A stretch of DNA of 64,000 nucleotides, taken from NCBI GenBank assembly GCA_949130485.1, contig OX422187.1, forward strand, positions 8,582,205 through 8,646,204. Reading direction: 5' to 3'. Under the pieces are notes generated by a model, which had not been told where the DNA came from, did no database searches, and was given only the letters and a program-made list of their open reading frames with translations. Position 1 is the stretch's first letter, and each line of letters begins with the position of its first letter. The DNA comes from Agelas oroides. Lineage: Eukaryota > Porifera > Demospongiae > Agelasida > Agelasidae. The translations under genes were made by a program, and so were the position numbers. This document shows positions 869 through 64,000 of the stretch, piece after piece.

Positions 869-1035
869 TGCATAAGAATAAGACTGACAATGACTAGTGC
901 CATACAAACAGTTGTAGCCGATAGAGTTTGAATTACAGGCACAAGAACTGTCACTAAAAATAGTGCAAATATAAGATGGAGGGTGGGACATGGTAGAAGT
1001 ATATACATAAACTACTGAAAACAGAGCTGTACACA
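788..1035 (-). pseudogene. Cysteine-rich exon-like fragment (unknown protein)
   Basis: On the minus strand an open segment follows a good acceptor (TTTTGTGCAG, ending at about 1036). It contains a cysteine-rich stretch with the pattern C-x8-C-x-C-x9-C-x6-C (ICTIFSDSSCACN, then YNCLYGTSHC). A diverged copy lies in the spacer at 29041-29215 on the plus strand and keeps the words SHP, ICTIF and NCLYGTSHC. The mirror copy begins at 63834 and runs to the window edge. I do not recognise the family. It may be an exon of the same decayed gene as the fragments at 1637-1781 and 2990-3058, or simply part of the repeat-R family. Confidence 0.3.
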
Positions 1036-1636
1036 CTGCACAAAACAAACAAACAAGAGAAGTACGACTAATACAATGTAGGTTCCATATCCTTCCCATG
1101 ACATTGAAAGAAAAAAAAAAGTGAGTTAAGTTTATAGTCTGAGAGCTAAGACACTAATCATGTTTGTTTGTAGCCTACACCGTCTTGTAGTGCTTCAACA
1201 TGAGAGTGTTCTTTGCTATAGTAACACTATGATTAGCACATGCATGGCTGGCAACTTTGCTTTGTTCATAGGTATATGCAATTATATTCTAGGTATAGGC
1301 TAACTATACCAGGTATAGTCTCACAAAGTACACTAAACGTTCAATTCTTCAATCACAAGTTATTGTGTCACAGTGGAGTGCTGGAATAGAACTGAGGGAA
1401 CAGAAGTCAAAAGACCACTATGCCCTCTGATCCAGGAGGGCCTTAAGTGAAACAAACAAGTATATGGTCTGATTGTAGAAAATCAGCATTTGAAGCAAAT
1501 TCCAATTATGAATGGTTCATACAAATTTGAGCAAAAATTAAGAACAAGTGTGATTGCTAATTTTCTTTTTTTTTCTTCTTTGCCTAGACTCGTGCATGGC
1601 TAACTGGCTTCCAGCTAGTACATAATAAATATTCAC

Positions 1637-1781
1637 CGTGAGAAAGTCGCCGCAGTACAGACCCGAATGTCCAGCGAAAGAATCTTCGGTACAAGAACAC
1701 CTACCATCCAAGCACAAGCCTCCCAGACGCCCCACTAAGAACGACAGCGGGAGCCCGTACGTTGACCATTCACCCATCCCT
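1637..1781 (-). pseudogene. EGF-like exon fragment (left arm)
   Basis: The minus strand encodes a segment containing GGLCLDGRCSCTEDSFAG followed by HSGLYCG. The spacing C-x4-C-x-C-x12-C with a Gly-rich end matches the second half of an EGF-like domain. It is bounded by a plausible acceptor (ATTAACTAG) and donor (CACG|GTGAAT), giving a 145-nt exon. No full gene could be assembled around it: neighbouring sequence has stops and repeats. EGF modules mediate extracellular protein contacts; whether this exon is ever transcribed is unknown. The mirror copy is at 63104-63248. Confidence 0.4.
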
Positions 1782-2090
1782 CTAGTTAATATTATGATAA
1801 CTCCACCCATTGAGCCCCACCCCAATTTGTTTAGTATTTTGAATATTCATAGCACTGTGAATGCCAACCAAGAGCTGGACTCCTCAAAGCAAGCCTTAGG
1901 CGGGGAGTTTTCCCGTCCTTTCTGTAGTAGGCCACTGGTCGGGAATTCAAAGGGACTGAAACCCGTGGTCATTCGATGACCGGAAAGGGTACTCCCTTGA
2001 AGACAAGTGTTTTCAAGCATATCTCCCAAAGAACAATAACTCACTTTGCCATAACTGCCCCACCCATTTGAGCCATAACTGCCCCATCCT

Positions 2091-2597
2091 TTACCCATTA
2101 AACCCTATAGTGCACATTTGGTTACATCATACTGCGCACTGCACAGAAAAGATAGTCTCTGCGCGCTGTGCGTGCTGGTTCTGCATCAGCAGAAATGGTG
2201 GGACAGGGGGAGGTGGGTGTGGTCACCCGCAGGGTGACATGCACATGGTGGCTGCTAGGCTTGGCTGTCAAAGCGTCGTGGTTGGGACCGGGTGGGCAAT
2301 TCTTACCCTGGCTGCATGGACAGGCTTAGAAAATGCTACTCTTACCCTGTAGGGGATTCATTTCTGGCAGGGAAGGCTGCTTGGGCTCTGAGCGGGTGTT
2401 TGACAACTGAGAGTGCTGACTATTGCGTGCTCGTTAATGAGTGGGCATGGTTAAGGTCACGAGTCTGCTTGCTAAGGCTGGAAGTGAAGTTGGGTTCAGT
2501 TTTGGAGTCAGAGCTTGGACAGAACTGGAGATACGGTGCGTTAAGTGCATGCATAGGCTAAAACTAGTCTCAAGAAAATTCAGGGTTTAAAGGGCTA
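2091..2597. mobile_element. TTAA-type non-autonomous element 'T', degenerate copy (left arm)
   Basis: One end reads TTACCCATTAAACCCTATAG and the other GGGTTTAAAGGGCTAAG. These are degenerate forms of the TTAACCCTTTAAAC terminus seen in the cleaner spacer copy at 42914-43530. Internal sequence is shared with that copy: a GCGCAGAGACTATCTTTTCT segment, a GGGTGACC block and a CCGTATCTCCA block. TTAA targets with CCC termini are typical of piggyBac-like elements, so a piggyBac-type MITE is likely. No transposase is present. Confidence 0.6.
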
Positions 2598-2989
2598 AGC
2601 CATGAATGCCCCATCCCCATATCCCATTTATGTTTTGACTTTGCACTTTATGTATGTGTTGCACATGATGAGCATCGATGTGCCAGCCGGTGTTAGTGCT
2701 CCCTTTCTCGATACAAAACTGCTAATTTTCTTCTTCTTTTTTTTTTTTTCCGAAATGTCTAGACTCATACATGGCTAACTGGTTTCCAGCTTCTACATAA
2801 TAAAAGTGTCCTTGGCCAGGCTTCCCATGATTGCTGAGGCCATCATTGGTAAAAGAGCTAATTAATGAGTATTACACTCAGACTGTTGATTGTGCTTTTA
2901 GTATTGTATGCTAACATAATTGCTAGCAGTAGTGTATAGTTGTATAGTGTTTACAGTGGTAGCTGATTCAGTCTTTCCTTTGATCTCAC

Positions 2990-3058
2990 CAGGAGCAACA
3001 TTACAGATTGACCTAGTGAACCGGCAGTACATGACACATGGGACCCATTCTGCAATAC
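2990..3058 (-). pseudogene. 69-nt symmetric phase-1 cysteine exon (left arm)
   Basis: A 23-codon segment on the minus strand reads (G)IAEWVPCVMYCRF, then TRSICNVAP(G). It is bounded by an acceptor (TATTGTATTATAG) and a donor (CCTG|GTGAGATC). Both boundaries split a Gly codon after its first base, so the exon is symmetric phase 1-1, the class that can be duplicated or shuffled without shifting the frame. A degenerate copy containing WVPCVMHCC lies on the opposite strand at about 4640-4720, where it has stops. The protein family is not recognised. The mirror copy is at 61829-61897. Confidence 0.35.
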
Positions 3059-3367
3059 CTATAATACAATAACACAAAAACAAAAACAAAACTAACTCGT
3101 GTAACTGGCGCTGCTCTGTCTAGGTTGAGCTACTTAGTGTATCTCTAGGGCTGTTATCGCAACACAGAAGTTTTATGAACAAGTATGGCATTGGCCACCG
3201 TCATGCTTCTATATCCAAGCATGCATCGTACCATTACTGGCTCATCATCAGATGCTTTGTTATTACAGTCTTGCAAAGACAGACTCTCGAATGAAAAGCA
3301 AGAGTCTGGTTTCGTGAGACTATAGTTATGGAATTGCCTTCATGGACAAAAATGTGATGGTAGAAAT

Positions 3368-3658
3368 TTAGTAGTGCTCAATCCTCAGTCTCTTCACTTC
3401 GGTCTTTGTCTGTGCATCTTCGTCTGTGCACCTCAATCCTTGGTCACTCCTAGGTATCAAATTAAGCCTCCTTCCAGTAGTAAGTGTGGCCCCCATGCGT
3501 GATACAGTAGCTAGTCTCCGGGGACCCCGAGTTCTGACCGTGACATCATGATACCAAACAAGGAAGAATGTGGCAACACTGGACTTGCCCGTATAGACTC
3601 TGCGGTGAGAAAAGAGCCCTAGGCACATAGTGGCTAGCTCAACCTTGAAGAACCACAC
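3368..3658 (-). other. 96-codon open frame of unknown status (mirror 61229-61519, plus)
   Basis: An open frame on the minus strand is rich in Arg and Thr and has no signal peptide or motif that I recognise. The right arm carries the same frame with one visible amino-acid change (an L/I difference after GAT). An acceptor-like TTAGCTCAACC and a DNA segment shared with the region near 3110-3140 (ACTCGTG..ACTGG.G.. and GGTTGAGCTA) suggest it is part of a local duplication. It could be an exon fragment or chance; I favour non-functional. Confidence 0.2.
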
Positions 3659-3695
3659 CAGTCACACGAGTTAGCTATAATTGTGTACATTCACC

Positions 3696-3730
3696 GTTCC
3701 ATTCCATTCCATTCCACCATTCCATTCCAT
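3696..3730. repeat. ATTCC short tandem repeat
   Basis: Several copies of the pentanucleotide ATTCC, interrupted by ACC, are mirrored near 61160-61190. No gene lies in the surrounding stretch 3060-5097. It holds a plus-strand repeat-R unit (about 3840-4060) and a degenerate inverted copy (4640-4720) of the 69-nt cysteine exon. Confidence 0.7.
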
Positions 3731-5060
3731 ATTCCAGTCCAGCGATTAGAGACACCCAAGGACACTACCACCACTACAAACAAACGTGAGTAGTGTCTTG
3801 TTTAGGTTAGTTCTCAAAGGAACAGCATTTGTTGAGAACATCTGTGAGAGATTCACTACAACTGCATTTCAGTAGCCATGGCAGCAAATGACTCCAGATG
3901 TTCTGTGGTTGAGATCTGAAGGATTGTGAGCTCAAGTTGGATTTTTTTTAGATAACCAAAGCACTGTCAACAGAAGCACTACAAACAAAAGCCTTTATTG
4001 TGTTGGCCTGTGAGTAAATACCTTTAGACTTGTATGTTCAGACTGTGCCTTCTGCTGTTTGGTGCATGAGTCCTTTGTTGTGTGTACAGCTATGATGGCT
4101 TACTAGTCACTAATACTTTAATTGTAAACACTTAGCAATATAGTCTAGCGAGATGCACATCCCACACAGAAATGCTGCTCACAATAGATTGTGCCACAAC
4201 GAACAAAACGGGAAAGGGGGAGGTGAAATTCTGGTGAACTGCCCATTTATAACAGTGTGCTAATGAATGGAAAGGATGACAAACTTTTTTTCACACAGTT
4301 TGAATAGCCTTGACCAAGTTGACTGCACTGTGTGTTTGTCCAAAACACACACAAGTTAGCATTAGACCTGACAGTACCCATTGTTCATAGAATGCAGTGA
4401 TAATCACAGCGGCAGCTGTGGATTTGATAAATCTTCCTCCTCTTCTTCTCTACAGACCACATGCAAAATTATGCATTCCTTTTTTGTGTTACTTGAGCAC
4501 CAGAATACCCAGGGACAGCGCATAGGTAGGTGCTAAGTATAGAGTGGGCCAGGCAATAATGCAGTGCTTCACACCATGGTCATTGGTGTGGGAGAGAGAA
4601 GTTTAGACTTACATGTTAGCTACAAGGGAAACTATACAATTGCAAACTGGGTCCCATGTGTCATGCACTGCTGCTTCTCTAGATCTAGGGTCATACTATA
4701 ATTTACGTTACCCCTGGTGAGAAGAAATTAGAGACTGAAAGTGAGTGCACTACAGCTAGTAAAGTTGATTATCATATCACAGAAATTATAGGTGAAAGAG
4801 CTAGCTAGTCTTTGTGTATTACACTCAGACTGTGCTTCAGAGCAGAAATCAGCAATCGCCTCCGTTGTTGAGCTCATTGGTAGTTGGCCAAATTTAGCCG
4901 AATTTGTATCAACCATTCACAATTGCAATGTGATTATTCAAAACCTTACAATTAGATCATACTGTTTTGTTTTTCTCAGAGACCTTCTGATGCAGTCATC
5001 ATTTGCCTACCAATATGTTAGCCATGAGTCTTTAAAGGGGCTGGACCATGGCCATATATT

Positions 5061-5097
5061 GTAACATTTAACCCATTAAAATATAATGGATTAACTA
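5061..5097. other. Insertion flank used to define the foldback element
   Basis: GTAACATTTAACCCATTAAA and the following ATATAATGGATTAACTA are shared with the right arm at 59797-59832, fixing the left boundary of the 463-bp element to one base. Confidence 0.8.
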
Positions 5098-5560
5098 CAC
5101 TGTAAAAACATTTGGGTTAGTTCAACCATATTTTGGTCATCTCAGTTGCATGCCTGTACGTTGTGTACGTGACACGTTACAAACTTCAAGGGATGCTTCC
5201 AATTTGATTGAAAGCTTTTAAGTGTAGTTGAGACACTTCTCCTTTTTGTTAACTTAGGATCTTCTTGCAGGAAGCCTAGCTATTTGGTTCCTGGCATTTC
5301 TACCAAAACCATACAACCAAGGAACTCCTCCAGGGGCAGACATGTATAGGATCAAAGAAACACCAAACTCACCAGAAATGCTGATTTATAGGCCTTCTGC
5401 AAGATGATCATAATTTAACAAAAGGGAGAAGCTTCTCAACAGCACTTTGAATCAAATTGTAAGCATCCCTTGATGAAGTTCATAATGTTTCACTTACACA
5501 GCAGGCATGCAACTGAGATGAGCAAAATATGGTTGAAGTAACCCAAATGTTTTTACAGTG
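5098..5560. mobile_element. 463-bp foldback (hairpin) transposon, left arm only
   Basis: The element starts CACTGTAAAAACATTTGGG and ends with the reverse complement of that sequence. The two halves pair almost throughout. For example, TCATCTCAGTTGCATGCCTG near the left end is matched by CAGGCATGCAACTGAGATGA near the right, and CTTCTCC..TTTGTTAA pairs further in. The whole element is therefore an imperfect hairpin. It is flanked by TA on both sides and is absent at the matching right-arm site (59793-59796). The coordinate-sum jump between arms here is exactly 463. It has no coding capacity. TA targets and a CACTGTAAA end suggest a Tc1/mariner-type MITE. Confidence 0.9.
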
Positions 5561-6628
5561 TAGATAACTAGATAACTATAAGAAAGCAAAATTGTTTCAC
5601 ACAAACTATTCTTAATGTGAAAAGTCCCGATCTTCAGTACATGCAGGCTCATGGTTAACTATATAACAGATCGATGATCATGGTTAACTTAGTCTTTAGC
5701 AGCAGTGGAAGCCTGGAAAGGAGGCTATGGTGTTATAGCAACCCAAGAGTGTGTGGTATCCCAGCAACCAATACACAGGTTTGTGGTATCCTAGCAACCA
5801 ATACACAGGTTTGTGGTATCCTATAGTTTCCAAGTCAGGCCCTAAATAGGATAATAAGCACTAGTGTCTACTATCAAGTGGCCTTGGCTACAAGTTGGAT
5901 TTTTATCTCATCTCATGTTGATGGCTTGCTTGCAATCAGACAAACTACTAGTAAAAATTAGCCGTTACATTCAAATCAGCAATTCACTACCATTTGTGTG
6001 GTAATGGTACCTTTGTTTTGAGGGCTGCCTAGCTATGTGAGTGTAGGTGCTTACAAACAAGATGAAGTTGTTGTAATCCAAATAGGTTCCACCATAAAAT
6101 CTTCTGACCATAATTATTCCTTAGATCTTCTGATATAACAACAAAAAGTTATATCACCCCCACAACCAGCCGAGAGGATGTTATGAGGGTTTTCAGTGTA
6201 TTGTGGTTGTAAGATGAACTGGGAAGCTGTCCCTTGGGTTGCTTTATGCAATTACTCTTCAATACCAAAGTAAAGTTCTCATAACCACTTTTTGTCTGCA
6301 ACCAGGGTAACCACTCTGTGGTTAAAACTGTTTTTGATATGATATATATATATACACCACTGTGGTTTGGTTAATTTGTAACAGATATAAGGTTGCCCAA
6401 TGCTAGTTTAATTTGTTGCATAGCAACCATGGTGACTGAATAAGTTGCCATGGTGGCACTTTTATTGCTCCTTGCAACCACAGAAACCACAACAGCAGGA
6501 AACAGATTCCGCAACAATAAACATAGAACTATTACAGCTGGTAACACAAGTATCCAGTGCAAAAGTGGTTAACTGAAGCGCAAGAAACATCAGTGAATAA
6601 GCTCTGCAAGAAAACGTGGCAGCCAAAG
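5561..6628. other. Non-coding stretch upstream of the secreted-protein gene
   Basis: It contains two 34-bp tandem units (GGTATCC(C/T)AGCAACCAATACACAGGTTTGT, about 5755-5820), an AT-rich run (TATATATATA near 6343), and likely promoter and 5' exon sequence just before 6629. A short open frame on the minus strand at 6371-6562 is present in both arms but has no recognisable features. Confidence 0.5.
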
Positions 6629-6723
6629 GTGAATATTACCTGCAACTAAGTCTGCTTTATCATCACTGAGTATGCATGTCACCATGTACACAGTGAATAA
6701 TTATTTTCTTCATCCATTTTCAG
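6629..6723 (+). other. Putative 5'UTR intron of the 6724-7461 gene
   Basis: A donor-like CAAAG|GTGAAT at 6629 and an acceptor CATCCATTTTCAG ending at 6723 bound a 95-nt intron. Its last base is directly followed by the ATG. The spacer paralogue has the same arrangement and shares internal intron sequence (TCTGCTTTAT..ATCAC.GAG). That supports a real, conserved intron. Transcript data would confirm it. Confidence 0.6.
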
Positions 6724-7461
6724 ATGTCGTCCGCAACATGGATCTGTGTGGCCTTCCTTGGCCTTCTTATGCTGCACACTTCTAGGGCCCAATCATGTGA
6801 GGAACGACTGCAAGCTGTGATCCCAATTGTCAGCACCATAGACCTTCCCAGGTCAGTTCTGGGACAGCTAGCTGATCCTGAAATGAACTTCTACCGACAG
6901 AATTTGCGCTTCACAGATGAAGAAATCCAACAGGAAATGCAGAATGCCATGAATCATTACAACACACGATTTGGTCTTAATTTTTCTTCTGTACAGCCTA
7001 ATGACCGGGGACAACGAATCATTGGAAATGCAACATTCTATTTTCTAGCATTCCCATTCAACATCACAGCTCCTTACAACCGCTGGATGGTGAATGGAAA
7101 AACAACTACTAGATGCTTTCCGGTGGGAATTGGTGGCTTTCAGGTGGATTTCACTGGAGATATGATGATACATGGGACATATGGCGGCGAGGATGGGATC
7201 CTTGTTGTACTGCGTGATAGCTTTTTCTATGGCTATGACCTACTTTATGATGCATGTGCCCAACAACCAATATCGATCCTAGCTTACACAGATTTCCCCA
7301 TTCGCACGGTGCCAAACGAAGGCTGGATGGCAACAGATTTCGTTCTCTCCCACCGTCAGCTGGGCAGAGGTTTTGCGAGAGGGGTTACTCGTTTTTTCTT
7401 CCCTCCAGATCGTCCAGATCGAGTCATCAGTGAAACTCATGAAGTTTACTCTTTTAATTAG
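6724..7461 (+). CDS. Secreted protein of unrecognised family, 245 aa (left-arm copy)
   Basis: An uninterrupted 245-codon frame begins at the ATG directly after a splice acceptor. Residues 1-22 are a clear signal peptide: short N-region, hydrophobic core VAFLGLLML, and a cleavage-like SRA|Q. The mature part has three cysteines (25, 131, 178) and three N-glycosylation sequons (N86, N102, N113). The spacer paralogue at 30306-31031 conserves all three cysteines. It also conserves the blocks FT-x-(D/E)-DE/EEI, GQR-x2-GNATF, GGFQ-x2-F-x-G, G-x-YGG-x2-G, DACAQQ and RQLG-x-G, so the family is under constraint. There is no membrane anchor and no catalytic signature that I recognise, so I assign no function beyond extracellular or luminal. 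The right-arm copy encodes an identical protein. The neighbours are transposons, with no operon-like context. Confidence 0.9.
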   Translation: MSSATWICVAFLGLLMLHTSRAQSCEERLQAVIPIVSTIDLPRSVLGQLADPEMNFYRQNLRFTDEEIQQEMQNAMNHYNTRFGLNFSSVQPNDRGQRIIGNATFYFLAFPFNITAPYNRWMVNGKTTTRCFPVGIGGFQVDFTGDMMIHGTYGGEDGILVVLRDSFFYGYDLLYDACAQQPISILAYTDFPIRTVPNEGWMATDFVLSHRQLGRGFARGVTRFFFPPDRPDRVISETHEVYSFN

Positions 7462-8568
7462 TTCCCACCTAAGTGTTTTACTGATTTAGTTGCCTTATGT
7501 ACTTTTTAGATTCATGTACCAAATTTGATGTTAGGTGTTTTCAACTTTGTTATAACATGAGTTATCTCATTCTGTACCATAGATAATGACAAAGCATAAT
7601 TGGTAGCTGTAGGCAGAAGAGGTCATAAGAATCATCAAATTAAGGTGGCGGCGGAAGTCACTCGGCGGAGGTTAACGAAAACATAAACCTGGGTTACAGT
7701 CAGGACCAGTGTCACTCCTAGTTTCAGGGTTAGGGTTTGGTTTAGGGCAATCTTGCTTTGTCTAATTTAAAAAGGGGTTTTAGTAGCTTATTAATATATT
7801 CATGAGCCAAAATTGCCACTCGATGGACGCATCTACATGCTCACTGTAGGTAGCGTGACCAATGTATCTCAAATCATTCTGTGCCAGCTTTTGTTCAGAG
7901 CTACTCCCAAAGTCAGGCTAGACTCATGCTTGTCACTACTCTTGGAATGGACAACTTTGACCGCACCAAAATGAATGCACATTTCAAAAAATTCACAGCT
8001 TGTCTACGGAAGGGGCTCATTCACGAGTGCAAGCAAGCATTACTAGCCCCACCTCTCCCCCTTACGTCGCTAAACAACTCACGGCTCTGTTCCACACACA
8101 ACCACTCTTCAGCTTTCTTGTCAATGGCAACGTAGTACCAACGATATATTGCGCATTCTAGTTAAAGCCCAGCCCAGCACTCGAAGCACCGGGCCACGAT
8201 CACCTACTAGGCTTGGCATACGATCGCAAGACCTGGGCCTGCCCAATGAGTACAGTCTTGGCCACTGTAGCCTTTCTACTGCTTCTAGACACAAGCTTGC
8301 TTTCTAGTCTCGTCCCCAGACCCTCCGCGCCACGCCCCGTCGGAAAATTGGAGAGGGGAAAAAGGAAGGAGGGTCTGGTAAACGTAGTCTCGGATCCAGA
8401 CCCTCGAAAAATCGAAAAGGAGGGTCTGGTATTTCGGATGGGGTGGAAGTGTACACTGCGCCCGGTATGCAGGCGCACTTCCGATTGGCCTTTGATTAGC
8501 ATTCTGATGTGCGTTAATTAGAAATGCTAATCGCACGGGAGCTGTCTTCGCGTTTTGCTTCGTTTTAG

Positions 8569-8681
8569 AAAGCTGTGAACACTCAGCGGGAAAGATTAGA
8601 ACGTTTGTGCGAGTTTCTGGTTCATCAGAAAGTTCTACTGGCTACGGAAGGTCCCGCAATTAATAAAATTCCTAACATTCC
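8569..8681 (+). pseudogene. Exon-like fragment within the nested transposon (left; mirror 56674-56786, minus)
   Basis: After an acceptor-like TTCGTTTTAG ending at 8568, an open segment encodes VNTQRERLERLCEFLVHQ followed by KVLLATEGPAINKIPN. Its composition is that of an amphipathic helical protein. It runs into the inner inverted repeat of the transposon at 8682. I do not recognise the source gene. It may be a second captured host exon, on the strand opposite to the helicase fragment. Confidence 0.35.
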
Positions 8682-8844
8682 GCAGTGTACACTTCCACCC
8701 CGCCCTGTTTACCAGACCCTCCTTTTCGATTTATCGAGGGTCTGGTTCCGAGACTATGGTAAACGGGCATTGCAGCGGACGTAGCGGAAGAATGTGGGGA
8801 ATCCATAATATTTGCATTAATTAACCGCACGCGCGACGTTAAGT

Positions 8845-9256
8845 AAACAAACTGCCACGAATCCACTCAGATTATCCCGGTAGACTGCAGTGCGAAGCAT
8901 GTCTCGCCAGCTGGGATTCGACAAAAGCGACTCTGGGCTTATGAATAACTGCGCCTTGCCTTCACGAACGCTTTCCACGGCCTGGGGATCGCACCGCGCT
9001 TCACCTACAAACTGTGCTGACATTCCTCTTGGGACAAACATGGCTTTCTGATCGACCATCAACGACGTTAGGGGTGATACACATATAACAATCGATCGTT
9101 CTTTTCCTCTCATGTTGTCAGCAAACAAGCGTAACACAACGATTTGCCGCTTAAAAACTCCCGAACTACTGTTTCTTGCTCGGGCTTCAGGCTTTCATAG
9201 CCCAGTCTGTCGACAGAAAACTTGAGAGCTCGTTGTACACTGGTGTTCGCCGCCAT
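8845..9256 (-). pseudogene. RecQ-like DNA helicase fragment (left arm)
   Basis: The minus strand starts with an ATG (9256) and encodes an N-terminus ending GYESLKPEQETVVREFLSG, a Q-motif-like LKPEQ as in RecQ/BLM-type helicases. A remnant GKSLCYACL follows. After a frameshift comes RSIVICVSPLTSLMVDQ (helicase motif Ia region) and FISPESLLSNPSWRDML. It stops just before the expected DEAH motif II. Most of the Walker A region (about a dozen residues between FLSG and GKS) is missing, apparently deleted between short SGK-type repeats. It lies wholly inside a MITE and cannot encode a working helicase. RecQ enzymes unwind DNA in recombination and repair; this copy is a relic. Confidence 0.75.
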
Positions 9257-9405
9257 TTCTCACTGTTTCCCACAAATATGCAATCAGCTTTGATAATTAC
9301 GTTTTAATTAGCTCCGCTAACATTCCAGCGGAGTTGCACGAAGTAGTCTGCCCGTTTACCAGACCATGGACCCTCCTTCCTTTTTTCCCTCTCTAATTTT
9401 CCGAT

Positions 9406-9995
9406 GGGGCGTGGCGCGGAGGGTCTGGGGACGAGACTACTAGCTTTCACAAGCAGGCACTACGAACTACTCACACTACAGCACTCTACTAAAACTCCTT
9501 GTTTTGTTTTTTTAAGTCGATCTAAGCTTATCTTCAAAGTTCCGACCACCACATTAGGGGTTCCGCCAGCCCACATCTTAACTAACTTAATTATAAACTG
9601 ATTATTGGATGCCAATGCCGGCAGGAAATGGGGAAAATCCCCAATTTTACGGACAGTGAACGGATGAAGACTCCCAAAACTGACTGTGCACTAAAAGTTT
9701 GGGGCGTGGCGCGGAGGGTCTGGGGACGAGACTACTAGCTTTCACAAGCAGGCACTACGAACTACTCACACTACAGCACTCTACTAAAACTCCTTGTTTT
9801 GTTTTTTTAAGTCGATCTAAGCTTATCTTCAAAGTTCCGACCACCACATTAGGGGTTCCGCCAGCCCACATCTTAACTAACTTAATTATAAACTGATTAT
9901 TGGATGCCAATGCCGGCAGGAAATGGGGAAAATCCCCAATTTTACGGACAGTGAACGGATGAAGACTCCCAAAACTGACTGTGCACTAAAAGTTT
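9406..9995. repeat. 295-bp tandem duplication, left arm only
   Basis: Segment 9406-9700 is repeated at 9701-9995 with an offset of exactly 295. The unit begins GGGGCGTGGCGCGGAGGGTC inside the TIR of the nested transposon, crosses the transposon/X junction and ends CTAAAAGTTT in X. The right arm has one copy. Because it spans a transposon boundary, it arose after the nested insertion. The copies look identical. Confidence 0.95.
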
Positions 9996-10070
9996 AACAA
10001 GACAGAGAGAAGTCTATCAGCTTGGATTCCAGGTTTGTCGACCTTGAAAGTAACATGGTTCTCTGCCACC

Positions 10071-10848
10071 TTACATTCTTGGTGGACCGTGTGTGGAATG
10101 GTACAACAAAAGCGACTGTTTTTCTGTACTGCAATCGAATGGAACTAGGTTTGTAGTCTGATCTGTATGCATGGTAAAATGTGCACAAGGCAGCTGGAAC
10201 AATACTGACTAAAGCCAGTAATGTGTATTTGCTCACAAAAGCACAATGCAATTATCTGTAAGGTGGAACACTCTTGGATGCACCAAGTTTGACTTCTTGT
10301 CCTATTCTGCAGCAAAAATTAGATTTTAGCAACCCACTAAATGAGGCTGGCTTGGGATTGGGTTCTAGCTGAAATTGAATGAATGAATGAATGAGATTTT
10401 AATAACAATCACGGCCAGGGTGGCCCATTAGTCAGAGAATACCCAATATATTGTGTTTCAACAGACATGAATAAACAAATTTACTGACACTCATTACTCA
10501 GGAGGGGTTCCTAGAACTTGATAACAATATCATCTGTTGTTCCACATCGAGAAATTGAAACTGAACCACGAACAGCCTCTGAGGACATATCGCAAAGCTG
10601 TGGTAAACATTAGCAAGCTTTCCCTCAGGCTCTACACCACCATAAGTCTCATGCAGCATCTGCTGCCCAGTGAATGAAAGCTGAATCCACCAACACAAAT
10701 TGCGCAACATAATTATGGACCTTGTATTGCCATTCTCTAACCAATAATTGAGAATGGTTGTGAATGTTGAGGACTTTCAAGATCTGTTTTGATTTCCTTG
10801 AGTATGAAGTTTGTGACACCTCTAGCTATATTAGCTGTATTAGCTAGG
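10071..10848. other. Stretch without a recognisable gene
   Basis: Includes a short GAAT repeat (10377-10393). An open frame of about 70 codons on the minus strand (10498-10710) is identical in the right arm but has no start context, signal or motif to support it. I see nothing else here. Confidence 0.4.
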
Positions 10849-11900: not shown

Positions 11901-12006
<106 letters not shown>

Positions 12007-12229
12007 GTTACGACTTTTGTTCAAAGAACAATAACTCAAAAACGGTTCAAGCACTCACCGTAATTTTAGCACGAAACTGATGCTTATCACAGCGCGGAGC
12101 TCTACGACCACTCAGCGTCTTCATAGCTTCAAATTCACCCTGGTCAACAAAAGCCATTCACAACACTCTGAGGCTGCTGTGCGTTGCTTAGGACGCCATC
12201 TTCTAAATTGTGTACGCATGCGCACACGA

Positions 12230-16476: not shown

Positions 16477-16504
16477 TCATATATGAAAATTGCACCGCTC
16501 AACT

Positions 16505-18400: not shown

Positions 18401-18477
18401 TGAAATAGGCTTAGGTCTGAGATTAACATCAAAAAAGTGCAGAAACAAGACTTAAAAACATAAAAAATGTAAAACAG

Positions 18478-42711: not shown

Positions 42712-42712
42712 T

Positions 42713-53682: not shown

Positions 53683-53683
53683 C

Positions 53684-53772
<89 letters not shown>

Positions 53773-53810
53773 AAAAAGAAAGAAAGAAAGAAAGAAGAAG
53801 AAAAATGGCA
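53683..53810. repeat. GAAA microsatellite (right arm)
   Basis: Mirror of 11901-12005, longer and interrupted by AAAAAGA and AGAAG variants. Confidence 0.97.
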
Positions 53811-54228
53811 CTTTTGCTAGTGCACACTTGTGTTTAGTTGTCTTCCGTGTGGCTTTTGGCCACTTGTATGAGTCTTGCTGATCACAAAGGCACTCAAAGA
53901 GGAAGCCTGGGCGCTTAAATAAGCTTTTAGCGTGTTTGTGGTAAAGTTATAAGGCTTTTGCTTAAGTATTGCATATATTGCGCGTCGGCGCCATCCCTAC
54001 ATAGAGAGTCTACCGACTCTCTGATACAAGAGGAATGACAAAGCACACTACTTGGAGTCAGTGAAGAAAACATTGCATCAGTGATTGGTGCATTATTTGC
54101 TCCCATTTTCGTTTCCAATTTCCATTTTCAGTTTCCATTTCATTACCATTTCCTGCTTTTCCATGTGCCCGGGCTTCTGTGGGTGTGTGGTTTGTACCCT
54201 TCATGCAGTTTTATGTATTCCTAAAACA

Positions 54229-54813
54229 TCAAAAATGTGTGGCTGGAAACGTTGTGTTAGAACATGGGATTTGTACCCTTCGTGCAGTTTTATGTATTCC
54301 TGAGGGAATACATAAAACTGCACGAAGGGTACAAATCCCATGTCGGGAGAACATAAAACTGCACAAAGGGTACAAATCCCATGTCGGGAGAACATAAAAC
54401 TGCACAAAGGGTACAAATCCCATGTCGGGAGAACATAAAACTGCACAAAGGGTACAAATCCCATGTCGGGAGAACATAAAACTGCACAAAGGGTACAAAT
54501 CCCATGTCGGGAGAACATAAAACTGCACAAAGGGTACAAATCCCATGTCGGGAGAACATAAAACTGCACAAAGGGTACAAATCCCATGTCGGGAGAACAT
54601 AAAACTGCACAAAGGGTACAAATCCCATGTCGGGAGAACATAAAACTGCACAAAGGGTACAAATCCCATGTCGGGAGAACATAAAACTGCACAAAGGGTA
54701 CAAATCCCATGTCGGGAGAACATGCACAAAGGGTACAAATCCCATGTCGGGAGAACATGCACAAAGGGTACAAATCCCATGTTCTATCACATCATTTCCT
54801 GCCACATTTTTGA
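54229..54813. repeat. 41-bp minisatellite inside an inverted-repeat element (right arm)
   Basis: Mirror of 10849-11474 with exactly one 41-bp unit fewer: the coordinate sum changes from 65662 to 65703 across the array. It has the same terminal inverted repeats and the same hairpin end. Confidence 0.9.
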
Positions 54814-55923
54814 CCTAGCTAATACAGCTAATATAGCTAGAGGTGTCACAAACTTCATACTCAAGGAAATCAAAACAGATCTTGAAAGTCCTCAACATTC
54901 ACAACCATTCTCAATTATTGGTTAGAGAATGGCAATACAAGGTCCATAATTATGTTGCGCAATTTGTGCTGGTGGATTCAGCTTTCATTCACTGGGCAGC
55001 AGATGCTGCATGAGACTTATGGTGGTGTAGAGCCTGAGGGAAAGCTTGCTAATGTTTACCACAGCTTTGCGATATGTCCTCAGAGGCTGTTCGTGGTTCA
55101 GTTTCAATTTCTCGATGTGGAACAACAGATGATATTGTTATCAAGTTCTAGGAACCCCTCCTGAGTAATGAGTGTCAGTAAATTTGTTTATTCATGTCTG
55201 TTGAAACACAATATATTGGGTATTCTCTGACTAATGGGCCACCCTGGCCGTGATTGTTATTAAAATCTCATTCATTCATTCATTCAATTTCAGCTAGAAC
55301 CCAATCCCAAGCCAGCCTCATTTAGTGGGTTGCTAAAATCTAATTTTTGCTGCAGAATAGGACAAGAAGTCAAACTTGGTGCATCCAAGAGTGTTCCACC
55401 TTACAGATAATTGCATTGTGCTTTTGTGAGCAAATACACATTACTGGCTTTAGTCAGTATTGTTCCAGCTGCCTTGTGCACATTTTACCATGCATACAGA
55501 TCAGACTACAAACCTAGTTCCATTCGATTGCAGTACAGAAAAACAGTCGCTTTTGTTGTACCATTCCACACACGGTCCACCAAGAATGTAAGGTGGCAGA
55601 GAACCATGTTACTTTCAAGGTCGACAAACCTGGAATCCAAGCTGATAGACTTCTCTCTGTCTTGTTAAACTTTTAGTGCACAGTCAGTTTTGGGAGTCTT
55701 CATCCGTTCACTGTCCGTAAAATTGGGGATTTTCCCCATTTCCTGCCGGCATTGGCATCCAATAATCAGTTTATAATTAAGTTAGTTAAGATGTGGGCTG
55801 GCGGAACCCCTAATGTGGTGGTCGGAACTTTGAAGATAAGCTTAGATCGACTTAAAAAAACAAAACAAGGAGTTTTAGTAGAGTGCTGTAGTGTGAGTAG
55901 TTCGTAGTGCCTGCTTGTGAAAG

Positions 55924-57050
55924 CTAGTAGTCTCGTCCCCAGACCCTCCGCGCCACGCCCCGTCGGAAAATTAGAGAGGGAAAAAAGGAAGGAGGGTCCA
56001 TGGTCTGGTAAACGGGCAGACTACTTCGTGCAACTCCGCTGGAATGTTAGCGGAGCTAATTAAAACGTAATTATCAAAGCTGATTGCATATTTGTGGGAA
56101 ACAGTGAGAAATGGCGGCGAACACCAGTGTACAACGAGCTCTCAAGTTTTCTGTCGACAGACTGGGCTATGAAAGCCTGAAGCCCGAGCAAGAAACAGTA
56201 GTTCGGGAGTTTTTAAGCGGTTACGCTTGTTTGCTGACAACATGAGAGGAAAAGAACGATCGATTGTTATATGTGTATCACCCCTAACGTCGTTGATGGT
56301 CGATCAGAAAGCCATGTTTGTCCCAAGAGGAATGTCAGCACAGTTTGTAGGTGAAGCGCGGTGCGATCCCCAGGCCGTGGAAAGCGTTCGTGAAGGCAAG
56401 GCGCAGTTATTCATAAGCCCAGAGTCGCTTTTGTCGAATCCCAGCTGGCGAGACATGCTTCGCACTGCAGTCTACCGGGATAATCTGAGTGGATTCGTGG
56501 CAGTTTGTTTACTTAACGCCGCGCGTGCGGTTAATTAATGCAAATATTATGGATTCCCCACATTCTTCCGCTACGTCCGCTGCAATGCCCGTTTACCATA
56601 GTCTCGGAACCAGACCCTCGAAAAATCGAAATGGAGGGTCTGGTAAACAGGGCGGGGTGGAAGTGTACACTGCGGAATGTTAGGAATTTTATTAATTGCG
56701 GGACCTTCCGTAGCCAGTAGAACTTTCTGATGAACCAGAAACTCGCACAAACGTTCTAATCTTTCCCGCTGAGTGTTCACAGCTTTCTAAAACGAAGCAA
56801 AACGCGAAGACAGCTCCCGTGCGATTAGCATTTCTAATTAACGCACATCAGAATGCTAATCAAAGGCCAATCGGAAGTGCGCCTGCATACCGGGCGCAGT
56901 GTACACTTCCACCCCATCCGAAATACCAGACCCTCCTTTTCGATTTTTCGAGGGTCTGGATCCGAGACTACGTTTACCAGACCCTCCTTCCTTTTTCCCC
57001 TCTCCAATTTTCCGACGGGGCGTGGCGCGGAGGGTCTGGGGACGAGACTA
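55924..57050. mobile_element. Non-autonomous transposon carrying gene fragments (right)
   Basis: Mirror of 8305-9443, bounded by GAAAG at 55919-55923 and 57051-57055. It is 12 bp shorter than the left copy, which equals the 12-bp difference inside the helicase fragment. Confidence 0.75.
56111..56510 (+). pseudogene. RecQ-like DNA helicase fragment (right arm)
   Basis: Mirror of 8845-9256, starting at ATG 56111. It has lost an additional 12 bp, including the codons of the GKS remnant that survives in the left arm, so no part of Walker A is left. The downstream piece with VSPLTSLMVDQ is preserved in another frame. Confidence 0.75.
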
Positions 57051-57893
57051 GAAAGCAAGCTTGTGTCTAGAAGCAGTAGAAAGGCTACAGTGGCCAATAC
57101 TGTACTCATTGGGCAGGCCCAGGTCTTGCGATCGTATGCCAAGCCTAGTAGGTGATCGTGGCCCGGTGCTTCGAGTGCTGGGCTGGGCTTTAACTAGAAT
57201 GCGCAATATATCGTTGGTACTACGTTGCCATTGACAAGAAAGCTGAAGAGTGGTTGTGTGTGGAACAGAGCCGTGAGTTGTTTAGCGACGTAAGGGGGAG
57301 AGGTGGGGCTAGTAATGCTTGCTTGCACTCGTGAATGAGCCCCTTCCGTAGACAAGCTGTGAATTTTTTGAAATGTGCATTCATTTTGGTGCGGTCAAAG
57401 TTGTCCATTCCAAGAGTAGTGACAAGCATGAGTCTAGCCTGACTTTGGGAGTAGCTCTGAACAAAAGCTGGCACAGAATGATTTGAGATACATTGGTCAC
57501 GCTACCTACAGTGAGCATGTAGATGCGTCCATCGAGTGGCAATTTTGGCTCATGAATATATTAATAAGCTACTAAAACCCCTTTTTAAATTAGACAAAGC
57601 AAGATTGCCCTAAACCAAACCCTAACCCTGAAACTAGGAGTGACACTGGTCCTGACTGTAACCCAGGTTTATGTTTTCGTTAACCTCCGCCGAGTGACTT
57701 CCGCCGCCACCTTAATTTGATGATTCTTATGACCTCTTCTGCCTACAGCTACCAATTATGCTTTGTCATTATCTATGGTACAGAATGAGATAACTCATGT
57801 TATAACAAAGTTGAAAACACCTAACATCAAATTTGGTACATGAATCTAAAAAGTACATAAGGCAACTAAATCAGTAAAACACTTAGGTGGGAA

Positions 57894-58631
57894 CTAATTG
57901 AAAGAGTAAACTTCATGAGTTTCACTGATGACTCGATCTGGACGATCTGGAGGGAAGAAAAAACGAGTAACCCCTCTCGCAAAACCTCTGCCCAGCTGAC
58001 GGTGGGAGAGAACGAAATCTGTTGCCATCCAGCCTTCGTTTGGCACCGTGCGAATGGGGAAATCTGTGTAAGCTAGGATCGATATTGGTTGTTGGGCACA
58101 TGCATCATAAAGTAGGTCATAGCCATAGAAAAAGCTATCACGCAGTACAACAAGGATCCCATCCTCGCCGCCATATGTCCCATGTATCATCATATCTCCA
58201 GTGAAATCCACCTGAAAGCCACCAATTCCCACCGGAAAGCATCTAGTAGTTGTTTTTCCATTCACCATCCAGCGGTTGTAAGGAGCTGTGATGTTGAATG
58301 GGAATGCTAGAAAATAGAATGTTGCATTTCCAATGATTCGTTGTCCCCGGTCATTAGGCTGTACAGAAGAAAAATTAAGACCAAATCGTGTGTTGTAATG
58401 ATTCATGGCATTCTGCATTTCCTGTTGGATTTCTTCATCTGTGAAGCGCAAATTCTGTCGGTAGAAGTTCATTTCAGGATCAGCTAGCTGTCCCAGAACT
58501 GACCTGGGAAGGTCTATGGTGCTGACAATTGGGATCACAGCTTGCAGTCGTTCCTCACATGATTGGGCCCTAGAAGTGTGCAGCATAAGAAGGCCAAGGA
58601 AGGCCACACAGATCCATGTTGCGGACGACAT
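57894..58631 (-). CDS. Secreted protein of unrecognised family, 245 aa (right-arm copy)
   Basis: Mirror copy of 6724-7461 encoding an identical 245-residue protein, with the same signal peptide, three cysteines and three sequons. The two arm copies face inward, towards the spacer. Complete protein identity, while surrounding arm DNA carries indels and substitutions, is compatible with recent duplication, gene conversion between arms, purifying selection, or the arms being two haplotypes. The putative 5'UTR intron lies at 58632-58726, with its acceptor directly before the ATG. Confidence 0.9.
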   Translation of the reverse strand: MSSATWICVAFLGLLMLHTSRAQSCEERLQAVIPIVSTIDLPRSVLGQLADPEMNFYRQNLRFTDEEIQQEMQNAMNHYNTRFGLNFSSVQPNDRGQRIIGNATFYFLAFPFNITAPYNRWMVNGKTTTRCFPVGIGGFQVDFTGDMMIHGTYGGEDGILVVLRDSFFYGYDLLYDACAQQPISILAYTDFPIRTVPNEGWMATDFVLSHRQLGRGFARGVTRFFFPPDRPDRVISETHEVYSFN

Positions 58632-58726
58632 CTGAAAATGGATGAAGAAAATAATTATTCACTGTGTACATGGTGACATGCATACTCAGTGATGATAAAG
58701 CAGACTTAGTTGCAGGTAATATTCAC
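58632..58726 (-). other. Putative 5'UTR intron of the 57894-58631 gene
   Basis: Mirror of 6629-6723. On the minus strand the acceptor CATCCATTTTCAG ends immediately before the ATG, and the donor CAAAG|GTGAAT lies 95 nt upstream. Confidence 0.6.
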
Positions 58727-59792
58727 CTTTGGCTGCCACGTTTTCTTGCAGAGCTTATTCACTGATGTTTCTTGCGCTTCAGTTAACCACTTTTGCACTG
58801 GATACTTGTGTTACCAGCTGTAATAGTTCTATGTTTATTGTTGCGGAATCTGTTTCCTGCTGTTGTGGTTTCTGTGGTTGCAAGGAGCAATAAAAGTGCC
58901 ACCATGGCAACTTATTCAGTCACCATGGTTGCTATGCAACAAATTAAACTAGCATTGGGCAACCTTATATCTGTTACAAATTAACCAAACCACAGTGGTG
59001 TATATATATATATCATATCAAAAACAGTTTTAACCACAGAGTGGTTACCCTGGTTGCAGACAAAAAGTGGTTATGAGAACTTTACTTTGGTATTGAAGAG
59101 TAATTGCATAAAGCAACCCAAGGGACAGCTTCCCAGTTCATCTTACAACCACAATACACTGAAAACCCTCATAACATCCTCTCGGCTGGTTGTGGGGGTG
59201 ATATAACTTTTTGTTGTTATATCAGAAGATCTAAGGAATAATTATGGTCAGAAGATTTTATGGTGGAACCTATTTGGATTACAACAACTTCATCTTGTTT
59301 GTAAGCACCTACACTCACATAGCTAGGCAGCCCTCAAAACAAAGGTACCATTACCACACAAATGGTAGTGAATTGCTGATTTGAATGTAACGGCTAATTT
59401 TTACTAGTAGTTTGTCTGATTGCAAGCAAGCCATCAACATGAGATGAGATAAAAATCCAACTTGTAGCCAAGGCCACTTGATAGTAGACACTAGTGCTTA
59501 TTATCCTATTTAGGGCCTGACTTGGAAACTATAGGATACCACAAACCTGTGTATTGGTTGCTAGGATACCACAAACCTGTGTATTGGTTGCTGGGATACC
59601 ACACACTCTTGGGTTGCTATAACACCATAGCCTCCTTTCCAGGCTTCCACTGCTGCTAAAGACTAAGTTAACCATGATCATCGATCTGTTATATAGTTAA
59701 CCATGAGCCTGCATGTACTGAAGATCGGGACTTTTCACATTAAGAATAGTTTGTGTGAAACAATTTTGCTTTCTTATAGTTATCTAGTTATC

Positions 59793-59796
59793 TATA
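59793..59796. other. Empty site of the 463-bp foldback element (TATA)
   Basis: The right arm reads GTTAATCC-to-CTAGTTATC continuously across this point, with TA-TA where the left arm has TA-[element]-TA. Both flanking TA copies remain. That fits excision retaining both target copies, or insertion between pre-existing TA repeats without duplication. Confidence 0.75.
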
Positions 59797-61828
59797 GTTA
59801 ATCCATTATATTTTAATGGGTTAAATGTTACAATATATGGCCATGGTCCAGCCCCTTTAAAGACTCATGGCTAACATATTGGTAGGCAAATGATGACTGC
59901 ATCAGAAGGTCTCTGAGAAAAACAAAACAGTATGATCTAATTGTAAGGTTTTGAATAATCACATTGCAATTGTGAATGGTTGATACAAATTCGGCTAAAT
60001 TTGGCCAACTACCAATGAGCTCAACAACGGAGGCGATTGCTGATTTCTGCTCTGAAGCACAGTCTGAGTGTAATACACAAAGACTAGCTAGCTCTTTCAC
60101 CTATAATTTCTGTGATATGATAATCAACTTTACTAGCTGTAGTGCACTCACTTTCAGTCTCTAATTTCTTCTCACCAGGGGTAACATTATAGTATGACCC
60201 TAGATCTAGAGAAGCAGCAGTGCATGACACATGGGACCCAGTTTGCAATTGTATAGTTTCCCTTGTAGCTAACATGTAAGTCTAAACTTCTCTCTCCCAC
60301 ACCAATGACCATGGTGTGAAGCACTGCATTATTGCCTGGCCCACTCTATACTTAGCACCTACCTATGCGCTGTCCCTGGGTATTCTGGTGCTCAAGTAAC
60401 ACAAAAAATGAATGCATAATTTTGCATGTGGTCTGTAGAGAAGAAGAGGAGGAAGATTTATCAAATCCACAGCTGCCGCTGTGATTATCACTGCATTCTA
60501 TGAACAATGGGTACTGTCAGGTCTAATGCTAACTTGTGTGTGTTTTGGACAAACACACGGTGCAGTCAACTTGGTCAAGGCTATTCAAACTGTGTGAAAA
60601 AAAGTTTGTCATCCTTTCCATTCATTAGCACACTGTTATAAATGGGCAGTTCACCAGAATTTCACCTCCCCCTTTCCCGTTTTGTTCGTTGTGGCACAAT
60701 CCATTGTGAGCAGCATTTCTGTGTGGGATGTGCATCTCGCTAGACTATATTGCTAAGTGTTTACAATTAAAGTATTAGTGACTAGTAAGCCATCATAGCT
60801 GTACACACAACAAAGGACTCATGCACCAAACAGCAGAAGGCACAGTCTGAACATACAAGTCTAAAGGTATTTACTCACAGGCCAACACAATAAAGGCTTT
60901 TGTTTGTAGTGCTTCTGTTGACAGTGCTTTGGTTATCTAAAAAAATCCAACTTGAGCTCACAATCCTTCAGATCTCAACCACAGAACATCTGGAGTCATT
61001 TGCTGCCATGGCTACTGAAATGCAGTTGTAGTGAATCTCTCACAGATGTTCTCAACAAATGCTGTTCCTTTGAGAACTAACCTAAACAAGACACTACTCA
61101 CGTTTGTTTGTAGTGGTGGTGGTGTCCTTGGGTGTCTCTAATCGCTGGACTGGAATATGGAATGGAATGGTGGAATGGAATGGAATGGAACGGTGAATGT
61201 ACACAATTATAGCTAACTCGTGTGACTGGTGTGGTTCTTCAAGGTTGAGCTAGCCACTATGTGCCTAGGGCTCTTTTCTCACCGCAGAGTCTATACGGGC
61301 AAGTCCAGTGTTGCCACATTCTTCCTTGTTTGGTATCATGATGTCACGGTCAGAACTCGGGGTCCCCGGAGACTAGCTACTGTATCACGCATGGGGGCAA
61401 CAATTACTACTGGAAGGAGGCTTAATTTGATACCTAGGAGTGACCAAGGATTGAGGTGCACAGACGAAGATGCACAGACAAAGACCGAAGTGAAGAGACT
61501 GAGGATTGAGCACTACTAAATTTCTACCATCACATTTTTGTCCATGAAGGCAATTCCATAACTATAGTCTCACGAAACCAGACTCTTGCTTTTCATTCGA
61601 GAGTCTGTCTTTGCAAGACTGTAATAACAAAGCATCTGATGATGAGCCAGTAATGGTACGATGCATGCTTGGATATAGAAGCATGACGGTGGCCAATGCC
61701 ATACTTGTTCATAAAACTTCTGCGTTGCGATAACAGCCCTAGAGATACACTAAGTAGCTCAACCTAGATAGAGCAGCGCCAGTTACACGAGTTAGTTTTG
61801 TTTTTGTTTTTGTGTTATTGTATTATAG

Positions 61829-61897
61829 GTATTGCAGAATGGGTCCCATGTGTCATGTACTGCCGGTTCACTAGGTCAATCTGTAATGTTGCTCCTG
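61829..61897 (+). pseudogene. 69-nt symmetric phase-1 cysteine exon (right arm)
   Basis: Mirror of 2990-3058 with identical coding content and splice signals. The pattern C-x3-C-x6-C within 23 residues suggests a fragment of a secreted, disulphide-bonded protein. The downstream neighbour on this strand is the EGF-like exon at 63104. Confidence 0.35.
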
Positions 61898-62287
61898 GTG
61901 AGATCAAAGGAAAGACTGAATCAGCTACCACTGTAAACACTATACAACTATACACTACTGCTAGCAATTATGTTAGCATACAATACTAAAAGCACAATCA
62001 ACAGTCTGAGTTTAATACTCATTAATTAGCTCTTTTACCAATGATGGCCTCAGCAATCATGGGAAGCCTGGCCAAGGACACTTTTATTATGTAGAAGCTG
62101 GAAACCAGTTAGCCATGTATGAGTCTAGACATTTCGGAAAAAAAAAAAAAAAGAAGAAAATTAGCAGTTTTGTATCGAGAAAGGGAGCACTAACACCGGC
62201 TGGCACATCGATGCTCATCATGTGCAACACATACATAAAGTGCAAAGTCAAAACATAATGGGATATGGGGATGGGGCATTCATGGCT

Positions 62288-62794
62288 TAGCCCTTTAAAC
62301 CCTGAATTTTCTTGAGACTAGTTTTAGCCTATGCATGCACTTAACGCACCGTATCTCCAGTTCTGTCCAAGCTCTGACTCCAAAACTGAACCCAACTTCA
62401 CTTCCAGCCTTAGCAAGCAGACTCGTGACCTTAACCATGCCCACTCATTAACGAGCACGCAATAGTCAGCACTCTCGGTTGTCAAACACCCGCTCAGAGC
62501 CCAAGCAGCCTTCCCTGCCAGAAATGAATCCCCTACAAGGTAAGAGTAGCATTTTCTAAGCCTGTCCATGCAGCCAGGGTAAGAATTGCCCACCCGGTCC
62601 CAACCACGGCGCTTTGAGAGCCAAGCCTAGCAGCCACCATGTGCATGTCACCCTGCGGGTGACCACACCCACCTCCCCTTGTCCCACCATTTCTGCTGAT
62701 GCAGAACCAGCACGCACAGCGCGCAGAGACTATCTTTTCTGCACAGTGCGCAGTATGATGTACCAAATGTGCACTATAGGGTTTAATGGGTAAA
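62288..62794. mobile_element. TTAA-type non-autonomous element 'T' (right arm)
   Basis: Mirror of 2091-2597, with the same degenerate termini and internal blocks. It has no coding capacity that I can support. Confidence 0.6.
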
Positions 62795-63103
62795 GGATGG
62801 GGCAGTTATGGCTCAAATGGGTGGGGCAGTTATGGCAAAGTGAGTTATTGTTCTTTGGGAGATATGCTTGAAAACACTTGTCTTCAAGGGAGTACCCTTT
62901 CCGGTCATCGCATGACCACGGGTTTCAGTCCCTTTGAATTCCCGACCAGTGGCCTACTACAGAAAGGACGGGAAAACTCCCCGCCTAAGGCTTGCTTTGA
63001 GGAGTCCAGCTCTTGGTTGGCATTCACAGTGCTATGAATATTCAAAATACTAAACAAATTGGGGGTGGGGCTCAATGGGTGGAGTTATCATAATATTAAC
63101 TAG

Positions 63104-63248
63104 AGGGATGGGCGAATGGTCAACGTACGGGCTCCCGCTGTCGTTCTTAGTGGGGCGTCTGGGAGGCTTGTGCTTGGATGGTAGGTGTTCTTGTACCGAA
63201 GATTCTTTCGCTGGACATTCGGGTCTGTACTGCGGCGACTTTCTCACG
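63104..63248 (+). pseudogene. EGF-like exon fragment (right arm)
   Basis: Mirror of 1637-1781, with the same acceptor, donor and cysteine pattern. On this strand the order of coding-like pieces is 61829-61897 (short cysteine exon), this EGF-like piece, then the cysteine-rich segment from 63834. If they are exons of one gene, transcription would run outward past the window edge at 64000. Confidence 0.4.
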
Positions 63249-64000
63249 GTGAATATTTATTATGTACTAGCTGGAAGCCAGTTAGCCATGCACGAGTCTA
63301 GGCAAAGAAGAAAAAAAAGAAAATTAGCAATCACACTTGTTCTTAATTTTTGCTCAAATTCGTACGAACCATTCATAATTGGAATTTGCTTCAAATGCTG
63401 ATTTCTACAATCAGACCATATACTTGTTTGTTTCACTTAGGGCCCTCCTGGATCAGAGGGCATAGTGGTCTTTTGACTTCTGCTCCCTCAGTTCTATTCC
63501 AGCACTCCTCTGTGGCACAATAACTTGTGACTGAAGAATTGAACATTTAGTGTACCTTGTGAGACTATACCTGGTATAGTTAGCCTATACCTAGAATATA
63601 ATTGCATATACCTATGAACAAAGCAAAGTTGCCAGCCATGCATGTGCTAATACTATAGCAAAGAACACTCTCATGTTGAAGCACTACAAGACGGTGTAGG
63701 CTACAAACAAACATGATTAGTGTCTTAGCTCTCAGACTATAAACTTAACTCACTTAGACTAGTAATGTCATGGGAAGGATATGGAACCTACATTGTATTA
63801 GTCGTACTTCTCTTGTTTGTTTGTTTTGTGCAGTGTGTACAGCTCTGTTTTCAGTAGTTTATGTATATACTTCTACCATGTCCCACCCTCCATCTTATAT
63901 TTGCACTATTTTTAGTGACAGTTCTTGTGCCTGTAATTCAAACTCTATCGGCTACAACTGTTTGTATGGCACTAGTCATTGTCAGTCTTATTCTTATGCA

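Follow-up and report, generated by a model that had tools for sequence, protein, structure and literature searches.

A putative large palindrome with a TTAA-flanked mobile element at one inner breakpoint, in a gene-family cluster of the sponge Agelas oroides

Long inverted duplications whose copies may exchange sequence are known from several lineages. On the willow W chromosome, two consecutive palindromes spanning over 200 kb and subject to gene conversion were reported (PMC7023750). In Atlantic herring, inverted duplications of 8-60 kb with a core identity of 95-99% were proposed to recombine (PMC11499932), while the account of the freshwater sponge Ephydatia muelleri describes widespread segmental duplication with replicated gene clusters (PMC7385117). 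Among the titles listed by searches of open-access literature on palindromes and inverted repeats, none concerns a palindrome in a sponge nuclear genome, reports elsewhere being possible; one listed paper, on demosponge mitochondrial genomes (PMC6052604), contains the word once. The locus described here belongs to the sponge Agelas oroides (assembly GCA_949130485.1) and lies in a stretch of 64,000 nucleotides, called the window, of contig OX422187.1 (C5:8582205-8646204). Two long, near-identical arms face each other in inverted orientation around a spacer, and one of their inner boundaries coincides with a TTAA-flanked mobile element.

The window (43.4% guanine plus cytosine by base counts) was joined to 50 kb of leftward and 200 kb of rightward sequence, giving 314 kb for comparison; coordinates below 1 or above 64,000 denote C5 sequence outside the window. 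Searches of the assembly covered 259.3 Mb in 141 contigs, of which C5 makes up 11.68 Mb. The DNA searches among them score the best candidates only; three omitted the query's own locus, which five others listed, hence absence cannot be inferred from those three. The arms and the spacer are as follows.

1..22133, plus strand: left arm in the window, continuing to at least -49,999 (C5:8532205)
43531..64000, minus strand: right arm in the window, continuing to at least 107,337 (C5:8689541)
22134..43530, no strand: spacer between the arms; a second copy of 29954-42487 (in pieces) and of 28122-29648 lies at 126021-141804

A preliminary description of the window had paired 869-22133 with 64000-43542, and a blastn comparison of the window with itself recovers this mirror in four main blocks: 10915-22133 with 54782-43542 (98.0% identity), 9701-11358 with 55961-54304 (99.8%), 5561-9700 with 59794-55667 (99.6%) and 869-5097 with 64000-59795 (98.6%). 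Such a correspondence cannot be chance. The arms had also been expected to run on past the window, which they do, and the structure is larger than first reported. A collinear chain of 12 blocks pairs -49,999..22,133 with 107,337..43,542, so that within the compared sequence the left arm measures 72 kb, the right arm 64 kb and the spacer 21.4 kb. Over the whole chain, 507 mismatches were counted in 59,964 aligned columns (0.85%), and inward of -36,662 the count is 283 in 50,759 (0.56%). With copies required to be 1 kb or longer and 90% identical or more, the arms are segmental duplications (the longest block has 16,962 columns at 98.5%, and others reach 99.6%), and inverted near-identical arms of more than 10 kb around a spacer give them the geometry of a large palindrome.

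Both arms hold unshared sequence, with left-only insertions of 6,356 bases near -36.6 to -30.3 kb, 634 bases near -7 kb and 463 bases at 5098-5560, and, as an example from the right arm, an insertion of about 1.0 kb near 89.5-90.5 kb. The left arm also carries an exact tandem duplication of about 295 bases (9405-9995) that is present as a single copy in the right arm. Farther out, mirrored matches identified by position only were found at C5:8529182-8532084 (96%) and C5:8511277-8512073 (97%), with weaker ones at C5:8505118-8509267 (82-91%); all matches beyond -49,999 are on the minus strand, as a mirror demands.

The reading of the locus as a large, near-identical palindrome stood, but the structure is not isolated: it sits among nested segmental duplications, direct as well as inverted, that form a cluster. 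A partial third copy in direct orientation occupies 113.2-177.1 kb (113200-177067) and begins about 6 kb past 107,337, the last right-arm position compared. Within it, the inner left arm recurs in direct orientation at 113,200-123,767, much of the spacer at 126,021-135,398 and the outer right arm, again directly, at 142,447-177,067. In addition, older copies (85-91%) of parts of the 10.4-25 kb region are located inside the outer arms. When the three copies were compared at 29,889 sites, the third copy alone differed at 339, the left arm alone at 149 and the right arm alone at 41, with all three different at a single site. These differences are not evenly placed. From 63.3 to about 84.5 kb the third copy is the odd one at 328 of 392 sites (summed windows); between about 84.5 and 100.2 kb this role falls to the left arm (113 of 137 sites). 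The closest relative of the right arm thus switches near 84.5 kb. In the inner part (8,692 sites) the left arm is odd at 48, the right arm at 35 and the third copy at 85, and all differ at 1. This three-copy mosaic requires either exchange between copies or several duplication steps.

The third copy also allows the inner boundaries of the palindrome to be placed. The features at these boundaries are:

42910..43534, plus strand: complete TTAA-flanked high-copy element of about 0.6 kb at the right inner breakpoint, with ends TTAACCCTTTAAAC / GGGTTTAAAGGGTTAA
43155..43393, plus strand: 119-bp unit inside the element, present twice at 100%
42712..42913, plus strand: minisatellite with 26-bp units, next to the element towards the spacer; TTAA occurs in two units
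22112..22145, plus strand: left inner boundary, the same site as the right breakpoint, lacking the element; compared with the third copy, 7 bp are lost at the TTAA

The preliminary description placed the right inner boundary at 43542; by comparison with the third copy, right-arm homology reaches the TTAA at 43531-43534, about 10 bp farther in. The third copy runs uninterrupted through this site as TACTGGCTA-TTAA-AAGATTGAG, whereas the right arm reads TACTGGCTA-TTAA-element-TTAA-minisatellite. More precisely, the right arm has GAAGTAATACTGGCTATTAA directly followed by the element where the third copy has GAAGTAATACTGGCTATTAAAAGATTGAG, and on the far side of the element the minisatellite, two units of which contain CTCTGTTAAGG, stands in place of the continuation AAGATTGAG. 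The two sides of the element thus carry the flanks of different TTAA sites, indicating that the breakpoint of the inverted duplication lies in or at the element. The left arm terminates GAAGTAATATTATAAGATTGAG, and the 7-bp loss at its TTAA hints that breakage occurred there. The sequences just inside the two arms are unrelated, as had been claimed: the left arm gives way to sequence that borders it in the third copy as well, and the right arm to the end of a transposable element and then the 26-bp minisatellite.

The element starts with TTAACCCTTTAAAC at 42910 and ends with the inverse of it at 43534, so that both ends carry TTAA and terminal inverted repeats starting CCC. From its TTAA target and CCCTTT-like ends it is presumably of the piggyBac type. 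More specifically, TTAA together with CCC-terminal repeats is what is looked for in a non-autonomous element of this type, which would presumably be mobilised by a piggyBac transposase. Among the best 40 of 978 candidate copies in the genome, most have an identity of 98-99% in the first 365 bp and of 95-97% in the last 261 bp, and most begin or end within a few bases of the TTAA ends. A diverged relative of the element (83-87%) is present in both arms, at 2090-2597 and 62288-62794.

Divergence between the arms is uneven, ranging from 0 to 48 mismatches per kb. Blocks nearly free of mismatches (7 mismatches in 7 kb at 4.6-12.1 kb; 1 in 3 kb at -20.1 to -17.1 kb) are separated by stretches of up to 1.8% divergence, and the outermost part reaches 4.8%. 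The two longest runs without a mismatch measure 3189 and 2508 bp, whereas none of 500 random scatterings produced one beyond 1425, a comparison that is generous because of the strongly diverged outer arm. The preliminary description had invoked arm-to-arm conversion as the process maintaining identity. Mismatch-free tracts longer than chance fit this proposal and are consistent with it, but uneven divergence arises between alleles too. A simple fall of identity with distance from the centre was rejected: inside -37 kb, patches of low and high identity alternate, and only the outermost part is clearly more diverged. That genes lie preferentially in converted tracts was likewise unsupported, gene pairs being not significantly more alike than random stretches of the arms.

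The cluster holds single-exon genes of a family of secreted-type proteins, about 245 amino acids (aa) long, with members in both arms and in the spacer:

6724..7461, plus strand: single-exon gene for a secreted-type protein of 245 aa, with its mirror at 57894-58631
57894..58631, minus strand: mirror copy of the 245 aa gene
30306..31031, minus strand: gene of the same family in the spacer, 241 aa, with a second copy at 126351-127076 (8 differences in 726 nucleotides)

The mirror pair of the 245 aa gene differs by one synonymous change and encodes identical proteins. Among the best 150 of 182 candidates in the assembly, the family forms clusters on several contigs, and the four close matches of the 245 aa gene (100, 100, 96 and 82%) are all on C5, with none on small unplaced contigs. 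A protein homology search with the 245 aa protein gave 13 proteins among 184 candidates. Pfam recognised no domain in the 245 aa or the 241 aa protein at E 0.1, and a PDB sequence search returned no match up to E 10. A barrel resembling those of dirigent proteins and allene oxide cyclase was considered as a candidate fold for the 245 aa protein.

The locus is best explained, with a probability of roughly 0.7, as a genuine inverted segmental duplication. It would lie in a gene-family cluster undergoing rearrangement on a single chromosome, would have arisen by fold-back at or through the TTAA element, and its copies would later have exchanged sequence. That it is a true palindrome is probable; granted this, a role of the element in the mechanism is about evenly balanced. 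An ancestral block consisting of an outer part, an inner part and the spacer would have been broken at a TTAA site, and the chromosome copied or fused back onto itself. The join would have been made through the TTAA-flanked mobile element, linking the inner end of the inverted copy to the minisatellite at the end of the spacer, either by recombination of two element copies in opposite orientation or by aberrant transposition; the breakpoint would be accounted for most simply by one of these routes. The product would be a left arm, a spacer and an inverted copy of the left arm, part of which would then have been copied directly (113-177 kb), and later exchange of sequence among the copies would have produced the mosaic. 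Geometry, identity, third copy, switch of the closest copy and element at the breakpoint are directly seen; from them we infer the fold-back route and the exchange. The lineage-expanded family of secreted-type proteins would thereby gain copies, some of them kept nearly identical, and any benefit from gene dosage would follow from this.

Several points weigh against this explanation. Alleles could plausibly also differ by 0.1-1.5%, the range seen over most of the arms, and allelic genealogy or selection, instead of conversion, can give uneven identity. The four gene pairs in the arms, with 10 differences in 3240 bases, are not significantly closer than random stretches of the arms, 19% of 20,000 random placements being as low or lower. 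The outer ends of the arms lie beyond the compared sequence and were not reached in letters, and the element could have inserted into a pre-existing join made at TTAA microhomology. Finally, the evidence consists of assembled sequence, and a lack of arm copies elsewhere is not inferable from two DNA searches.

The arms could instead be an assembly artefact in which both haplotypes of a single locus were joined head to head and escaped purging. Their overall divergence of 0.85% is within a plausible allelic range, and the join contains the high-copy element. Sponge assemblies do need removal of haplotypic duplications, 160 of which were taken out of the Spongilla lacustris assembly according to PMC12141999. 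However, there are three copies here, with a closest pair that switches near 84.5 kb, and a single head-to-head join is insufficient to explain all of this. Furthermore, the joined 314 kb contain no N, the repeat at the join (0.6 kb) is short relative to long reads, and the 245 aa gene lacks a close match on any small unplaced contig among the candidates scored. The family of the largest RNA polymerase subunit, for its part, has one locus each on C7, C19 and C5 (8 of 8 candidates scored), and single loci are the expectation for a haploid representation with three polymerases. A DNA search with the outer arm likewise showed no copy on a small contig, although the same search missed the query's own locus and carries little weight. 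The argument against a simple haplotype join, already made in the preliminary description, is thus strengthened by the three-copy mosaic, the structured breakpoint and the absence of N, without being settled by sequence of this kind, and the artefact is considered unlikely.

Two further explanations accept the duplication as real and remove the element from its cause. Template switching or end joining at the 4-bp TTAA microhomology could have formed the join, with a TTAA-targeting element inserted there afterwards. TTAA is indeed present both at the arm site and in the minisatellite units, and nothing beyond TTAA is required for such an element to insert. On the other hand, the spacer alone contains 123 TTAA sites, so that a later, unrelated insertion would have hit precisely the join by coincidence, and the 7-bp loss at the very same site of the left arm suggests breakage there; this sequence of events seems rather doubtful. 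Alternatively, recombination between older, already inverted copies of the cluster, as in ordinary turnover of segmental duplications, could have made the mirror and left the element as a bystander. The 85-91% copies of the 10.4-25 kb region in the outer arms imply that both orientations pre-existed, yet arm homology stops exactly at the TTAA end of the element and not inside a longer, older repeat, which makes this origin improbable. Folding back at or through the element hence remains the preferred account.

The same gene family may form a second mirror elsewhere. At C3:10936871-10976693, three opposite-strand pairs share an axis at about 10,956.8 kb. When the tolerance was 100, 1200 or 3000 bases, three pairs were reached in 9, 40 and 169 of 2000 label shuffles, respectively, and in 0, 0 and 6 of 2000 random placements. 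This test took in the complete set of 21 rows on C3 together with 26 on C5; two more rows of C5 (4242757, and the second of the pieces at 8496133) were omitted. In a wider test at a tolerance of 3000 bases, based on 126 rows from the 150 matches with rows of other contigs and some isolated rows omitted, 34 of 500 shuffles reached the C3 mirror, and no excess of mirrored pairs was found on C4, C8, C17, C2 and C7. The C3 cluster hints at a second mirror of this family and, as such, would be the first hint that fold-back recurs. Extending this, TTAA-targeting elements might recurrently fold chromosomes into large palindromes in this genome, with exchange between arms then maintaining duplicated genes for secreted-type proteins, a generalisation that is at present speculative and rather unlikely.

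Other features of the cluster were recorded alongside. Two open frames in the spacer were assigned by Pfam:

25144..26211, plus strand: DDE_1 transposase open frame in the spacer
38953..40164, plus strand: reverse transcriptase (RVT_1) open frame in the spacer

A repeat of 1030 bases occurs twice at 100% in the spacer (34474-35503 and 36182-37211), each copy with an internal run of 30 A, and has relatives at many places in the genome. An arginine-rich open frame of 298 aa in the right arm (97260-98156) and the third copy (174140-175036) is presumably of the kind found in helicase-bearing elements. Beyond the third copy, a tandem array with a period of about 180 bases, shifted copies of which are 86-90% alike, occupies 201522-205179. 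Three open frames of about 310 aa (241052-241990, 253131-254054 and 263003-263932), related to one another and containing hydrophobic segments, possibly represent a receptor family bordering the cluster. A scan of the window with Rfam gave zero families at the gathering score. Among the matches listed for the assembly, all lie on C1-C23 except those on C67 and C82.

If confirmed, the locus would represent a palindrome whose arms exceed 60 kb, located on a chromosome that is not known as a sex chromosome, and one of its breakpoints would be resolved to a mobile element. The origin of palindromes, and their upkeep by arm-to-arm conversion, could then be tested without the setting of a sex chromosome. 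The locus would also bear on how the genomes of sponges, probably an early-branching animal lineage, reach high gene numbers. Should recurrent fold-back hold true, gene families could expand outside sex chromosomes by palindromic amplification, and a non-bilaterian animal would already have this route.

With the palindromes of sex chromosomes, both those of mammals and those reported for the willow W (PMC7023750), the locus shares long, near-identical inverted arms, genes within the arms and stretches of very high identity amid less similar sequence. Unlike them, its arms are less uniform (0-48 mismatches per kb) and hold an animal family of secreted-type proteins, and nothing examined marks C5 as a sex chromosome. 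The long near-perfect inverted repeats of Caenorhabditis elegans, as presented in PMC1803023, are similar in belonging to an invertebrate and in combining homologous gene pairs with intervening sequence, but the arms on C5 exceed 60 kb and are part of a multi-copy cluster. The herring duplications of PMC11499932 are likewise inverted, yet they flank megabase inversions, whereas the arms described here flank a spacer of 21 kb. The freshwater sponge Ephydatia muelleri resembles the locus in its segmentally duplicated gene clusters, the word "inverted" being absent from the main text of PMC7385117. Large palindromes with exchange between their copies are already known; the locus in Agelas oroides would join them, with an unusually clear breakpoint.

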